Below, piece after piece: positions 47,945 to 53,132 of a stretch of 64,000 bases of DNA. Position numbers and translations under genes: made by a program. The stretch comes from Glycomyces algeriensis (GTDB lineage Bacteria; Actinomycetota; Actinomycetes; Mycobacteriales; Micromonosporaceae): contig NZ_JAPZVR010000006.1 of assembly GCF_027622855.1 (NCBI RefSeq), positions 124,001 through 188,000 of the forward strand. The letters run 5' to 3'. Numbering within the stretch: position 1 is the stretch's first letter; each line of letters begins with the position of its first letter. The notes below the pieces were generated by a model, which ran no database searches, had not been told where the DNA came from, and was given only the letters and a program-made list of their open reading frames with translations.

Positions 47945-49033
47945 TCAGTTGCCGGTCAGGCGTTCGAGCCAGCCCGGGGACTGCCGCTCGCGGCGGTCGC
48001 CGACGTACTCGACCACCACGTCCACCAGTTGCTCCGGGCTGTCCGTGGCGGCGACCGCGCGCGGGTGGAGCGCGGCGTGCGCGCTCGGGTGCTCGGAGAA
48101 GAGCACGGCGGGCGTGGGAATGCCCGAGGCGACCATGCGGTCGAGGAGGCGGCTCCCGGCGGCGTCGCCGTCGGGTTCGGACTCGCGGCGCATGTCGGTG
48201 ATGACGAGGTCGTAGGGGTGCTTCGCCAAGGCGCGCATGGCTTCATCGGTGGAGAGCACCGGCTCCACGGTGATGCCGACAGCGCGGAAGAGCCCGCTCA
48301 GTATGTCGTTCCCGTCCGGATTGTCGTCGACCCACAGGATCGAGCCGCCCCGCAGTTCGAAGGCGGCGAGCACGAGTTTCGTGGCGGCGCGCAGGCTCTG
48401 GGTCCGGGACTGGTGCCCGAGCGGATGCCGGTACGCCGGCTGGACGGGCTGGGCCCAGTAGGGGGCGGGCCGGTTCGGGTAGTAGGCGCCACCCTCGCCG
48501 GGCCGGCCCGCGGGAACGGGATAGGTGGGCGGGATGTTGGGGATCTGCTGGTTGGGGGCGGTCACCGTGGCGTAGGGGTCGGGCTCGGGCTGCGCGGTGT
48601 CGGCGGGCCCGTCGACGGGTGGGGTGGCGAGGAGGTCCGGCTTCGCCTCGGCGGGCGGTTCGGTGTGGACGGTCTCGTCGTCGTCCGCCGGTTCGTCGTC
48701 CGTGGCGTCCTTCGCGGGTGGCGACTGCGGGTCGGTGCCGATCTTGTAGACCACGCCGTTGCCGGGCCGGACCTGCTGGGTCGGCAGCGGGTAGAGCGCG
48801 GTCCAGTCCGTCTCGGCGGGCGGCGGCTGGAGCTGCACGGCGTCGCGCACGGCCGCCTGTTCGATGGCCTGCTGGGCGAGTTCCACTGTGACCCAAGGGG
48901 TCTCGACCTTGGTCATGCGCGGCGCCTGGGCGGTGAAGAGCCGCTTGGCGATGGCCAGCGCGATGAAGCCGAAGCCGACCCAGAGGAAGGCCGGGAGCAC
49001 CTTGATCAGTTCGATCCAGATGGCTTCGCTCAT
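47945..49033 (-). CDS. Membrane-anchored receiver (response-regulator) domain protein
   Basis: The 362-residue protein has an N-terminal membrane helix (VLPAFLWVGFGFIALAIAKRLF, about 8-30) and a short soluble part (TKVETPWVTVELAQQAIEQAAV). A long Pro/Gln/Asp-rich linker (about 70-235) follows, then a C-terminal REC domain with ILWVDDN acid pair, phospho-acceptor Asp in YDLVITDM near 290 and the expected Thr/Lys region. No output domain is present. I choose ATG 49033 with GGAG 6 nt upstream. A receiver on a flexible tether at the membrane is unusual and may act as a phosphate sink or allosteric clamp. Confidence 0.75.
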   Translation of the reverse strand: MSEAIWIELIKVLPAFLWVGFGFIALAIAKRLFTAQAPRMTKVETPWVTVELAQQAIEQAAVRDAVQLQPPPAETDWTALYPLPTQQVRPGNGVVYKIGTDPQSPPAKDATDDEPADDDETVHTEPPAEAKPDLLATPPVDGPADTAQPEPDPYATVTAPNQQIPNIPPTYPVPAGRPGEGGAYYPNRPAPYWAQPVQPAYRHPLGHQSRTQSLRAATKLVLAAFELRGGSILWVDDNPDGNDILSGLFRAVGITVEPVLSTDEAMRALAKHPYDLVITDMRRESEPDGDAAGSRLLDRMVASGIPTPAVLFSEHPSAHAALHPRAVAATDSPEQLVDVVVEYVGDRRERQSPGWLERLTGN

Positions 49034-49117
49034 CGTGGGCTCCAAAGAAGGGGGTACCGGGGCCGGGCATCTCTACCTTAAACGGCCGACGCCATGGCCC
49101 CGGTACCGCAAGGCGTC

Positions 49118-49936
49118 TCACCGGGTGAGGGCGTGGAACAGGGAGATCCAGCGGTCAGGCGGGACGAGTCCGACGACTTGGTCGCGGGCGATGCCGGCTT
49201 CGGCGCAGGCCTGGTGCGCGACGCGCCTGGGGACGACGCGGCACAGGGACGCGGCGAGCGCGCCGCCGATGCCGGAGAAGCCGAGGTCCACGAGGTCGCG
49301 GTAGTCGACCATGGCGTCGGGCGGCAGCAGGGGCCTGGTGCGGCGGTGCAGGTGCAGCACGGCGGCGTCGACCTGCGGGACGGGCCGGAACTCGCGGCGG
49401 TCGAGGCGCATGCCGAGTTCGAAGTCGAACTCGGGCCAGTGCGCGACGGTGAGGCGGCTCCAGCGGCCGTAGTCGCCGGTGTGCTTGCGGGCGAACTCGA
49501 GCTGGGTGATCAGTGCGGCCGAGGTGAGGGTGCGGGCGCGCAGGCACCACCGGACGATGTCGGTGGTGATTCCGAAGGGCGCGTTGGCGACGACGCTGAA
49601 GGGTGCTTGCGGTGGTGTGACGTCGCGGAAGTCGGCCTGGTGGCAGCGGAAGTGCTCGTGGTGGCCGAGGCGCGAGTGGAGTCGTTCGACGAAGTGGCGG
49701 TCCTTCTCGTAGGCGGTGACGCGGCGGGCGCGGTCGAGCAGCGCTCTTGTGACCATGCCGTCGCCGGGGCCGACTTCGATCACGTGGTCGTTCGGGCGGA
49801 CGTCGGCGGCGTCGACGAAGGCGCGGGCGGTGTGCGCGTCGCGCAGGAAGTTCTGGGACAGGGCTTTGCGGTTCGAGAGGTCGCGTGCGCTTTTGGTGTG
49901 CGGAGCTCGGGCACGCGGGAATTGGCTGCGGGACAT
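49118..49936 (-). CDS. erm: 23S rRNA (adenine-N6)-dimethyltransferase, Erm family
   Basis: The 272-residue protein has the Erm arrangement: KALSQNFLRD at 24-33, SAM motif I VIEVGPGDG at 52-60, YEKDRHFVERL, and catalytic motif IV NAPFGI at 118-123. Erm enzymes methylate A2058 of 23S rRNA and give macrolide-lincosamide-streptogramin B resistance. The N-terminal TKSARDLSNRKALSQ resembles actinomycete Erm proteins rather than KsgA. The start lies in a palindrome CATGGAG..TACTCCCATG that can hide the ribosome site. A leaderless peptide gene (50048-50122) with an MRLR stalling motif lies upstream. Confidence 0.88.
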   Translation of the reverse strand: MSRSQFPRARAPHTKSARDLSNRKALSQNFLRDAHTARAFVDAADVRPNDHVIEVGPGDGMVTRALLDRARRVTAYEKDRHFVERLHSRLGHHEHFRCHQADFRDVTPPQAPFSVVANAPFGITTDIVRWCLRARTLTSAALITQLEFARKHTGDYGRWSRLTVAHWPEFDFELGMRLDRREFRPVPQVDAAVLHLHRRTRPLLPPDAMVDYRDLVDLGFSGIGGALAASLCRVVPRRVAHQACAEAGIARDQVVGLVPPDRWISLFHALTR

Positions 49937-50047
49937 GGGAGTACTCCATGAGGACGAGTCGAATCAGGACGATCGATTCGCCTAGGCCCGCGCAGGGGCG
50001 CAGCCGCTGCGAGACGCAGCGGTCGGATAGGAGCGCTTGCGGGAGGC

Positions 50048-50122
50048 CTAGGCCGCCGCGCGCAGCCGCATGAAGCACGGGCAGGACGCGGTGGACGCGA
50101 ACTGCCCCGGTGACCCGTACAT
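50048..50122 (-). CDS. Leader peptide of erm, ends MRLRAAA (24 aa)
   Basis: This small gene was found by reading the erm 5' region. It opens MYGSPGQFAST, continues into SCPCF and ends MRLRAAA-stop. MRLR is the minimal sequence at which macrolide-bound ribosomes stall on the ermD leader (MTHSMRLRFPTLNQ), so this is a strong candidate for an inducible resistance leader. The internal ATG at 50071 gives MRLRAAA alone as an alternative. A promoter (-35 TGGACG, 17-nt spacer, -10 TAGCCT) places the transcript start near the ATG at 50122, so it may be leaderless. Confidence 0.6.
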   Translation of the reverse strand: MYGSPGQFASTASCPCFMRLRAAA

Positions 50123-50129
50123 GCCCGCG

Positions 50130-50158
50130 AGGCTATCCGGTTTCGCCCGGGGCGTCCA
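50130..50158 (-). promoter_or_regulatory. Candidate promoter of the erm leader transcript
   Basis: On the minus strand TGGACG (plus 50153-50158), a 17-nt spacer and TAGCCT (plus 50130-50135) are followed by the leader ATG 7 nt later. The -10 overlaps the stop codon of the symporter gene. Confidence 0.5.
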
Positions 50159-51677
50159 CCCGGTTCTCGCGCCGCGCGCGCGGGATCGCACCGGTGTCGT
50201 TGTGGGCGCCGCCGCCCGAGGAGTAGCGGCCGGGCACGTGGAGTCGCAGGACCGCTTCGCTGGCCCAGTCGGGGACGGATCCGGGGCGGGACGCGGCGAT
50301 CATGACGGCGAACGCGAGCGGCACCGTCCACAGTGCTGGCTGGGCGAGGAGGACTGAGACGATGCCGGGTTCGAGGTCGAGGACCACGGAGGCCAGCGCC
50401 GCGCCGGTGGAGGTGGCGGCGCCGACGAGCAGGCCCGCCGTCGCCCCGGTCGCGGTGAGGCCGCGCCACCAGATGCCGAGGGTCAGCAGCGGGCAGAACG
50501 TGGAGGCCGCCACCGCGAAGGCCCAGCCGACGAGCACGTTGATGTCCACATCGGCCGCCGGGAGCGAGAGCGCGACCGCGAGGGCCGTGCCGACGACGAC
50601 GCCGAGGCGCAGCCGTGAGAGCGAGCCGCCGAACAGGTCGTGCGAGAGGCCCCCGGCCAGCGCGAGGAGCAGCCCGGACGAGGTGGAGAGGAATGCGGCG
50701 AACGCGCCGGCGGCGACCAGTGCGGTGAGGACCGCGCCGGCCGTGCCGGGGACGATCGCGCCCGGGACGAGGAGCGGGACGACGTCGGTCTCCTCGGGTT
50801 CGGGCGTGGTGACGCGGCCGAGGAGGCCGTAGACGACCGGCCACAGGTAGAACAGGCTGAGCAGAACGATGACCGAGACGGCGACCCGGCGGGCCGCGCG
50901 GGCCCCGGCGACGGTGTGGAAGCGCATCACGACGTGCGGGAGCCCCATGGCGCCCAAGGTGGTCGCGACCAGGACCGAGATGGTGGCCAGCAGCGGGTGC
51001 CCGGAGCCGTCGAGGTCCAGGAGCGGGCGGGACCAGTCCGCGTCGGCGCTCGGGTCGAGGGCCGCCTCGCGCCGTTCGGGCCCGGCGAGGGCGATGAGGA
51101 AGACCGCGGGGCCGGCGATGAACACGAGCTTCACCAGGTAATGGAAGGCCTGCACGTAGGTCGCCGAGCGCATCCCGCCGACGGCGATGGTGGAGGAGAC
51201 CACGAGCCCGGCGCCGACGACGCCGACCCAGTAGGGGATGCCGGAGACGAGTTCGAGCACGACGCCGGCCGCTTTGAACTGCGGCAGCAGGTAGAGCAGC
51301 ATGATGACGAGCACGACGAGGCCGCACATGCGGCGGATGCGCGGCGAGCCCAGGCGGTACTCGGCGAAGTCGGGCACCGTGTAGGCGCCGCTGCGGCGCA
51401 TCGGCCCGGCCGCGAGCGCGGCGACGAGCACGTACCCGGCGGTGAAGCCCACGGCGTACCACATCGCGCCCACGCCGTTCTTGACGATCAGCCCGGCGAG
51501 GCCCAGTACCGAAGCGGCGGAGACGTACTCGCCCGCGATGGCGAGGGCGTTCCAGCCGGGCACGATGCTGCGGGAGGCCACCAGGAAGTCCGGTGTGGAC
51601 CGTGCGGCGCGCACGCCCCAGACGCCGATGACGACGCTGGAGGCGAGCACCAGGCTGATGGCGGCCAGGCCGAGCAT
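50133..51677 (-). CDS. Sodium:solute symporter (SSS family)
   Basis: This 514-residue protein has about thirteen membrane helices. It carries the SSS signature region GEYVSAASVLGLAGLI, SATYVQAFHYLVKL and AFAAFLSTSSGLLLALAGGLSHDLF, closest in style to acetate/monocarboxylate symporters (ActP/MctC). It takes up a small carboxylate with Na+. It is the last gene of an operon with HK, an Asn-Ala repeat frame, RR and a small membrane protein (51677-52027), so the two-component system probably senses or responds to the same solute. Confidence 0.9.
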   Translation of the reverse strand: MLGLAAISLVLASSVVIGVWGVRAARSTPDFLVASRSIVPGWNALAIAGEYVSAASVLGLAGLIVKNGVGAMWYAVGFTAGYVLVAALAAGPMRRSGAYTVPDFAEYRLGSPRIRRMCGLVVLVIMLLYLLPQFKAAGVVLELVSGIPYWVGVVGAGLVVSSTIAVGGMRSATYVQAFHYLVKLVFIAGPAVFLIALAGPERREAALDPSADADWSRPLLDLDGSGHPLLATISVLVATTLGAMGLPHVVMRFHTVAGARAARRVAVSVIVLLSLFYLWPVVYGLLGRVTTPEPEETDVVPLLVPGAIVPGTAGAVLTALVAAGAFAAFLSTSSGLLLALAGGLSHDLFGGSLSRLRLGVVVGTALAVALSLPAADVDINVLVGWAFAVAASTFCPLLTLGIWWRGLTATGATAGLLVGAATSTGAALASVVLDLEPGIVSVLLAQPALWTVPLAFAVMIAASRPGSVPDWASEAVLRLHVPGRYSSGGGAHNDTGAIPRARRENRVDAPGETG

Positions 51678-52773: not shown

Positions 52774-53132
52774 CAGCGCCTCCGGTTCAGGAGCAGGGTC
52801 GCAGTGCGGACCGGGCGGGAGGGAAGGGCCGCAATGCGAACGAGGCGGGAGTGATTAGTGCGGTCCCCCGCCCACTGAGCACGAATCGCGTTCGCGTTCG
52901 CGTTCGCGTTCGCGTTCGCGTTCGCGTTCGCGTTCGCGTTCGCGTTCGCGTTCGCGTTCGCGTTCGCGTTCGACGAAATGATGCGGTCGCCCGCCCACTG
53001 AGCGCGAATGCCATTCGCATTCAGGGGGATGTCGGACCCGTGTGGGAGAGTCGTCCTATTTCCCTGGTTGGTCGGAGGTGGATGCGGGTGGGAAGGGGCA
53101 CGCCCTATGGCCGCGTCAAGGAGCCGGGTCAT
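52773..53132 (-). CDS. Asn-Ala repeat open frame linking kinase and regulator genes
   Basis: This 119-codon frame exactly fills the gap between the kinase and the regulator. Its ATG overlaps the kinase stop (ATGA) and its TGA overlaps the regulator ATG (TGATG). The product is MTRLLDAAIGRAPSH..., then about 14 Asn-Ala pairs encoded by a perfect hexanucleotide tract (52886-52972), flanked by two IRAQWAGDR copies and a Pro/Arg-rich tail. It has no recognisable domain, and the composition could be incidental. The exact overlaps on both sides argue that it is translated. Confidence 0.45.
   Translation of the reverse strand: MTRLLDAAIGRAPSHPHPPPTNQGNRTTLPHGSDIPLNANGIRAQWAGDRIISSNANANANANANANANANANANANANANAIRAQWAGDRTNHSRLVRIAALPSRPVRTATLLLNRRR
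52859..53009. repeat. Hexanucleotide tract with duplicated flanks
   Basis: A perfect TTCGCG tract of about 14.5 units (52886-52972) is flanked by two 28-nt copies (52859-52886 and 52982-53009, 26 of 28 identical). A pair of 30-nt degenerate repeats lies at 52798-52856. The 6-nt unit means copy-number changes keep the reading frame. Confidence 0.9.

Follow-up and report, generated by a model that had tools for sequence, protein, structure and literature searches.

A leaderless-looking uORF with a conserved R-x-R motif, and a helix in register with it, point to drug-inducible control of erm in Glycomyces

Introduction

How is the erm gene of Glycomyces algeriensis controlled, and does the short reading frame in front of it take part? 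We analyzed a 64,000-nucleotide stretch of this genome (contig NZ_JAPZVR010000006.1, positions 124,001 to 188,000), hereafter the window, whose own numbering we use throughout. An initial annotation of the window had proposed that erm is preceded by a leaderless peptide, that the peptide's MRLR motif stalls ribosomes in the presence of macrolides, and that stalling exposes the erm start. Arg-Leu-Arg is the arrest motif of ErmDL; arrest there places the Leu codon in the P site and the second Arg codon in the A site, and an intact +x+ motif is strictly required for the response to telithromycin but dispensable for erythromycin (PMC8298421).

By comparing the locus with its relatives, we arrived at a modified reading to which we give a probability of roughly 0.7. 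In this reading, erm would be under two layers of drug-inducible control, a promoter of the WblC/WhiB7 type and a macrolide- or ketolide-responsive leader attenuator in which arrest at an R-x-R motif opens an RNA helix, H12. Open-licence searches of the literature on actinomycete erm leaders returned no description of this leader, which may nonetheless exist in print.

Results

The window gene is an Erm methyltransferase by family model

The gene and its upstream neighbor are arranged as follows.

49118..49936, minus strand: erm, predicted from family models to encode an ErmE/ErmH/ErmO/ErmR-type 23S rRNA (adenine-2058-N6) methyltransferase of 272 aa
50133..51677, minus strand: sodium:solute symporter gene, the upstream neighbor, whose stop codon overlaps the leader -10 box

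The erm product scored 322.1 bits against NCBIfam NF000337 (ErmE/H/O/R; cut-off 320) and 246.7 bits against Erm23S_rRNA_broad (cut-off 212), and stayed under the cut-off of the ksgA model (141.6 bits; cut-off 171). It also matches Pfam RrnaAD and, with 259 bits, PDB entry 6nvm, an rRNA adenine N-6-methyltransferase. By curated family model, the window gene is an Erm 23S rRNA methyltransferase, predicted to methylate A2058 and to protect the cell against macrolides.

At a threshold of E <=1e-25, erm was found in 20 of 22 genomes of the window's genus; genome G016 had no erm at this threshold. One genome-contig scan named 17 erm loci, 12 of them in Glycomyces (66-82% identity) and 5 distant (27-30%). 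The window's own genome holds a second, identical copy of the locus, which we did not count as independent. This copy, with its erm and leader, lies on another contig (G000 contig C13:1-48882) that matches window positions 12417-61306, the first 40 kb being 100% identical and the next 8.9 kb 99.6%, with no further match in the window. The contig may be an assembly duplicate, or a large region may have been duplicated very recently. Elsewhere in the window, at ~52850-53000, six-base repeats encode alternating Asn-Ala (minus strand) or Val-Arg (plus strand) within mechanically listed frames.

One same-genus genome, G001, has no intact erm. After the symporter end (L187, G001:C37:51500-53800) it retains a promoter-like stretch and an ATG TAC GG start; 65 nt beyond this leader-like start, and in another frame, only the last part of erm is left as a remnant. 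CCTAGG, CGAATC, and GATTCG were not found between the two. A single deletion removing the leader and the front of erm together would account for the remnant, although the arrangement does no more than suggest such a coupled loss.

A conserved leader uORF carries an R-x-R motif

Between the symporter and erm, we recognized the following promoter and leader features.

50162..50167, minus strand: candidate WblC/WhiB7 AT-box AGAACC, a weak match (relatives have, for example, GAAAAC or GAAATT)
50153..50158, minus strand: -35 box TGGACG, with a 17-nt spacer to the -10 box
50130..50135, minus strand: -10 box TAGCCT, 7 nt before the uORF ATG, with transcription predicted to start at the ATG
50048..50122, minus strand: leader uORF of 24 codons plus TAG (ATG at 50122, TAG at 50050-50048), peptide MYGSPGQFASTASCPCFMRLRAAA
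50060..50068, minus strand: R-L-R codons CGG CTG CGC, the +x+ macrolide/ketolide arrest motif; both Arg residues are invariant in the genus and the arrest role follows PMC8298421

The initial annotation had described a -35/-10 pair with a 17-nt spacer, 7 nt before the ATG of a 24-codon frame ending MRLRAAA-stop, and we found each of these elements on the minus strand. We then compared the leader with those of its genus, using the window and loci from 19 other genomes (L002-L020). A counterpart of the uORF sits at the same place in all 20 leaders, with a consensus peptide that is mostly GSPG..NACAAF..CFIRLRAAA. Single-base codon differences among these leaders were synonymous in 631 cases and nonsynonymous in 521 when read in frame, as opposed to 282 and 916, and 386 and 855, in the other two frames. 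Both Arg residues of the R-x-R motif are invariant (20/20) across codon swaps of CGG/AGG and CGC/CGG, and the residue between them is Leu in 17 leaders, Met in 2, and Ile in 1. The residue before the motif is Ile in 14, Thr in 4, Ser in 1, and Met in 1.

The pattern of codon differences, together with the invariant Arg residues, indicates that the leader frame is most likely translated and that selection keeps R-x-R rather than MRLR. The stalling element that had been named, MRLR, therefore needs revision: its Met is private to the window genome among the 20, and what is conserved is R-x-R within a longer peptide. We also considered MRLR as an independent short start, which we rejected because Met is missing in 19/20 leaders. 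We conclude that the erm leader uORF is most likely real, conserved, and functional. Its peptide contains a macrolide arrest motif at which, by analogy with ErmDL, ribosomes would be expected to arrest when the drug is present.

For a wider comparison, we used 34 loci of a second genus, g35 (29 from a search in which 81 of 118 genomes matched, plus 5 others). Thirty-three of these leaders were parsed, with L141 excluded, and g35 loci of a second type with a short uORF were kept apart.

As a group, the leaders fit the WblC/WhiB7 promoter consensus

In Streptomyces coelicolor, promoters activated by WblC/WhiB7 have the consensus GAAAWY-N3-TKGMNN-N16..19-TANNNT, most transcription starts at these promoters lie 7-8 bp past the -10 box, and an Erm(O)-type gene (SCO6089) is among the activated genes (PMC7157823). 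Of the 53 leaders from the window's genus and g35, 22 fit this consensus at <=1 mismatch and 51 at <=3 mismatches, levels reached by 0.11% and 8.2% of shuffles, respectively; neither the AT-box nor the -35 had been used in picking the frames. The window's own promoter has 3 mismatches over the box and the -35, the level at which 8.2% of shuffles also fit, so its assignment to the WblC/WhiB7 type rests on its relatives. A scan for the general sigma-70 consensus gave no match at 49800-50300.

The gap between the -10 box and the uORF is 7 nt in 45 leaders, 6 nt in 5, and 8 nt in 3, and since a gap of ~5-9 nt was the selection rule for the g35 frames, it is the exact gap, not its existence, that is the observation. 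A gap of 6-8 nt in 53/53 leaders predicts an mRNA that begins at the AUG, that is, a leaderless uORF. Within the whole 64 kb, counting both strands, three frames combine TAnnnT, a 5-9 nt gap, ATG or GTG, a length of 5-60 aa, and [RK]x[RK]; the erm leader uORF is the sole one that also fits the WblC consensus at <=3 mismatches.

The window genome has a WhiB-family gene (L129, G000:C14 near 47166) to which NCBIfam assigned no name and whose product has a tail that we take to be AT-hook-like. Its upstream region has a candidate WblC box 722 nt from the match and no leaderless R-x-R frame, and with one such distant box and no such frame we dropped L129 as a promoter yardstick. By eye, the same region shows a GC hairpin with TTTTT directly after it, which might be an attenuator.

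A conserved helix is in register with the R-x-R codons

A first sign of constraint on the RNA itself was that the bases GCCTAGGC around the uORF stop are fixed among same-genus leaders, third codon positions included. Between the R-L-R codons and erm, the leader contains the following elements.

50030..50053, minus strand: H12 5' arm, beginning 6 nt after the R-L-R codons and containing the uORF stop
49980..50005, minus strand: H12 3' arm (window duplex -34.5 kcal/mol)
49960..49980, minus strand: hairpin CGAATC-N9-GATTCG, which adjoins the H12 3' arm and whose outward extension competes with H12

The hairpins that had been claimed downstream of the leader frame are present. H12 starts 6 nt after R-x-R in 51 of the 53 leaders and 7 nt after it in the other 2 (L133, L134). 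Over its ten inner pairs, 508 of 530 cells are paired in register, compared with 358 for the best slid register. The position of the uORF stop varies, from 3 residues after R-x-R in 20/20 same-genus leaders to 5-18 residues after it in the 33 g35 leaders. Because R-x-R and the helix keep their spacing while the stop moves, the helix appears to be tied to a ribosome halted at R-x-R and not to termination.

Three pairs of H12 differ between the two genera on both sides. Pair 3 is UA in 17/20 same-genus leaders and CG in 20/33 g35 leaders, pair 4 is AU in 20/20 and GC in 32/33, and pair 6 is GC in 14/20 and AU in 11/33. When we exchanged arms between the genera, 88.9% and 84.9% of cells were paired, versus 95.8% with a leader's own arms. 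Same-genus 5' arms never formed pair 4 with g35 3' arms; the reciprocal exchange still formed it in 97%, by G-U. RNAalifold detected no both-sided change of a pair when given only the 20 leaders of the window's genus, and the both-sided changes between genera may therefore represent few events. Extension of the neighboring hairpin by one G-C pair is possible in 53/53 leaders, and the next pair is AU in 13/20 same-genus leaders and GC in 31/33 from g35.

Complementarity to the downstream leader is marked in the 30 nt that follow R-x-R, with a mean z of -1.98 in the window's genus (n=20; 9 below -2) and -2.60 in g35 (n=32; 19 below -2), and stretches 30 nt earlier or later show no special complementarity to it. 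Among other leader families, the mean z was -0.59 in the RPRVRR group (n=38), 0.25 in the short ALAR group (n=4), and -1.32 in the class set (n=20); given these weak or intermediate values, we claim the helix for two genera only. A search of 49000-51000 against Rfam gave no match with E <=1. From sequence comparison, we conclude that H12 is a conserved RNA structure coupled to the predicted arrest site. The proposal of a leaderless-looking frame with +x+ (R-L-R) before erm is strongly backed by its conservation and by a helix tied to the R-x-R codons.

Modeled stalling loosens H12 without exposing the erm ribosome site

49934..49954, minus strand: anti-SD UCC (49954-49952), SD GGAG (49947-49944), and erm start codon, lying in local hairpins and a near-palindrome

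As had been pointed out, the erm ribosome site lies in a palindrome: GGAG is inside the near-palindrome CATGGAGTACTCCCATG (49950-49934), which is kept only in some relatives. Because the palindrome persists only near the window's clade and the stability of the local SD window does not exceed that of its own shuffles (4-48% of shuffles were as good), we rejected it as the key element.

We modeled a stalled ribosome by placing the R-x-R arrest as in ErmDL, with a masked footprint that covers the first four H12 pairs. In partition functions, the stall lowered the probability of H12 from 0.84 to 0.31 in same-genus leaders and from 0.71 to 0.29 in g35, and raised that of the extended hairpin from 0.04 to 0.31 and from 0.10 to 0.41, respectively. 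With the ribosome at codon 5, H12 stayed in place (0.91 and 0.79).

Exposure of the erm start, which the initial annotation expected to increase, did not rise in the folding models. In the 20 same-genus leaders, the ribosome site had a mean unpaired probability of 0.24 without the stall and 0.22 with it, and in the 33 from g35 the values were 0.26 and 0.16; such equilibrium predictions carry uncertainty when a leader is long and GC-rich and folds during synthesis. On stalling, accessibility fell by >0.05 in 20/33 g35 leaders and rose in 3, and among same-genus leaders it fell in 4 and rose in 3. In a local model with the inner 3' arm freed, accessibility was flat (0.27 to 0.26 in the window's genus, 0.12 to 0.14 in g35). 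Freeing the whole 3' arm brought it down to 0.24 in same-genus leaders and slightly up to 0.18 in g35, where it rose in 24/33. Both folding models were negative or flat, except for this slight rise in g35, and do not support SD exposure on stalling.

How else might a stalled ribosome raise erm expression? Absence of predicted SD exposure agrees with an effect on messenger stability, in which a ribosome parked ~60 nt from the 5' end would shield the leaderless mRNA from decay and erm would increase without refolding. There is precedent in the erythromycin-induced stabilization of the ermA messenger, by the title of a cited reference, and in a reported link between erm expression and mRNA stability (PMC5118997). 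Shielding would leave unexplained why a helix stands in register after R-x-R, with both-sided changes between genera, and we consider it improbable as the mechanism. A second alternative is transcription attenuation, in which H12, once formed, would halt RNA polymerase before erm unless a stalled ribosome prevented it, as in ARE-ABCF genes. The end of H12, a very stable and GC-rich helix that the modeled stall loosens, lies 44 nt before erm, and ribosome-mediated attenuation has been reported both for several ABCF genes and for wblC (PMC12421871). A search for a U-tailed intrinsic terminator found no hairpin with a U-run at 49800-50300, however, and the H12 3' arm is followed by a further conserved hairpin and no U-tract. 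We judge this alternative unlikely, though not remote.

R-x-R leaders recur across actinomycete erm loci

To see how far such leaders extend, we scanned 135 actinomycete erm loci with a rule that includes no motif filter (TAnnnT, 5-9 nt, ATG or GTG, 5-60 aa, <=600 nt upstream of erm). These loci are the best-scoring matches, not a random sample. At the order level, 40 of 49 matches without a locus were retrieved, with G204, G412, and the seven weakest left out, and the class set consists of the 24 new loci returned, 45 of 394 genomes having matched. The scan excludes L001 (the duplicate), L141, L148 and L080 (truncated flank), and L019, the last too strictly, for it has the uORF.

A leaderless-looking frame was found without the motif filter at 124/135 loci, and a frame with [RK]x[RK] at 121/135, versus 2.8% of 2700 shuffles of the upstream stretches. 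By group, [RK]x[RK] frames occur at 19/19 same-genus loci, 32/32 g35 loci, 50/60 other loci of the order, and 20/24 further class loci. At <=2 mismatches, a WblC-like box is present at 98/135 loci and in 0/2700 shuffles, the counts by group being 10/19, 25/32, 44/60, and 19/24. Often these uORFs lie >250 nt ahead of the point where the erm match begins. A survey from 2024 of the regions upstream of erm reported no universal uORF pattern within ~250 bp.

Apart from the motif, the leader peptides are dissimilar: MFTHALIDV..RPRVRRPALAG in one genus, MGTLCTSGVCAGAYYLRLRTAARTL and ..GSPG.NGACAVGAYYIRLRTEA in g35, and MSCFSASFFVRLRTA and MNTHALRLRTA elsewhere. Fourteen of the 135 loci fail the [RK]x[RK] scan; in three of these (L029, L078, L095) the leader belongs to the commonest group and has R-P-W at the motif position.

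We also noted several leader families in passing. In another genus of the family (L057-L100), a conserved leaderless-looking leader family, MFTHALIDV..RPRVRRPALAGRDAHRA, precedes erm, and GGACAGG/CCTGTCC stretches occur near the erm start of the MFTHALIDV loci; in L064, for example, the uORF is at -333 relative to where the erm match begins. L063, L070, L097, and L101 represent a second erm type, whose leaderless-looking uORF, F[IV]R[IV]R..RALAR, is short and which has no H12-like helix, and G095 carries both erm types. In another family of the class (L176, L180, L181, L182), leaders started by GTG, such as MAANNAIISTGLGRG..RRGPGALTG, lie behind WblC-like boxes with 0-2 mismatches.

Could the leader frame have arisen by chance, with erm expressed constitutively? 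GC-rich DNA contains many short frames, and [RK]x[RK] was held by 69 of 185 shuffled leaderless frames (37%), compared with 123 of 127 native ones. This explanation is contradicted by the conservation of the frame, the helix, the 2.8% shuffle rate, and the arm-exchange test, and we find it hardly credible. Another possibility is that erm is a general WhiB7 stress gene whose uORF senses any slowdown of translation, from starvation or many antibiotics, with R-x-R incidental. The WblC/WhiB7-like promoter and the three leaders without R-x-R would suit it, and wblC itself answers to many ribosome drugs and to amino acid starvation (PMC12421871). What it does not predict is an R-x-R that is common to otherwise different peptides, as in the unfiltered native frames, and whose amino acids persist through codon changes; we hold it to be quite improbable.

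Discussion

We favor control of erm by drug-dependent arrest at R-x-R behind a WblC/WhiB7-type promoter. A housekeeping-sigma promoter of this type would start the transcript at the uORF AUG, or within 1-2 bases of it, and ribosomes would initiate on the uORF with no leader ahead of it. A ribosome whose exit tunnel holds a macrolide or ketolide would arrest at the R-x-R codons and cover the first base pairs of H12, which starts ~6 nt further on, loosening the helix and freeing part of its 3' arm. As this arm sits against the hairpin just upstream of the erm ribosome site, its release would allow erm to be expressed. In the absence of drug, the ribosome would run off, H12 would re-form, and erm would stay low.

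We lean, by a modest degree, toward a broader proposal: that the chromosomal ErmE/ErmO-type erm genes across Actinomycetes share one unrecognized ancestral circuit, in which a WhiB7-type promoter drives a leaderless uORF with a near-universal R-x-R and, in at least two genera, a helix 6-7 nt behind the motif. In soil actinomycetes, ketolide-type sensing might then be the old and native way to induce erm, because R-x-R makes ErmDL stalling answer to ketolides. Since only telithromycin requires the intact motif in ErmDL, leaders that share little but R-x-R would fit ketolides especially well. The circuit would connect WhiB7 activation with nascent-peptide sensing, two drug responses that are generally studied separately, in a way that can be tested; it also suggests that ketolide-inducible resistance may be old in the environment. 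For these reasons, the class-wide pattern deserves more attention than the single leader.

Other drug-responsive systems of actinomycetes share parts of this arrangement. As proposed for the Glycomyces leader, the attenuators of wblC, lmrC, are5sc, and tiaA join a drug-responsive uORF to an RNA switch; are5sc and tiaA have very short uORFs and terminator/anti-terminator folds (PMC12421871), whereas the peptide of the Glycomyces leader carries R-x-R and our search for a U-tailed terminator there found none. PikR1/PikR2 of Streptomyces venezuelae are also inducible actinomycete erm genes, activated exclusively by ketolides in one account, and PikR2, whose host produces a ketolide, may come nearest in function, a likeness that leaves leader sequences aside. 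With the WblC/WhiB7 regulon promoters of S. coelicolor, our leaders share, as a group, an AT-box, -35, spacer, -10, and start distance that fit the consensus; the available text on SCO6089 makes no mention of an R-x-R leaderless uORF before that erm (PMC7157823).

In design, the Glycomyces leader resembles the ErmDL/ermD attenuator, which has a uORF before erm, Arg-Leu-Arg as its arrest motif, and a messenger that refolds in response to the drug (PMC8298421). In ErmDL, R-L-R occupies residues 6-8, whereas the window leader has it at residues 19-21, near the C terminus, R-x-R lying at the end of a conserved peptide of 22-25 residues. The Glycomyces leader differs further in its apparent leaderless start, its putative WhiB7-type promoter, and its conserved helix, and SD exposure is not supported by folding. 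Our best reading is that the Glycomyces leader is an attenuator of the ErmDL kind, in which the apparent leaderless start, the putative WhiB7-type promoter, and the conserved helix are new.
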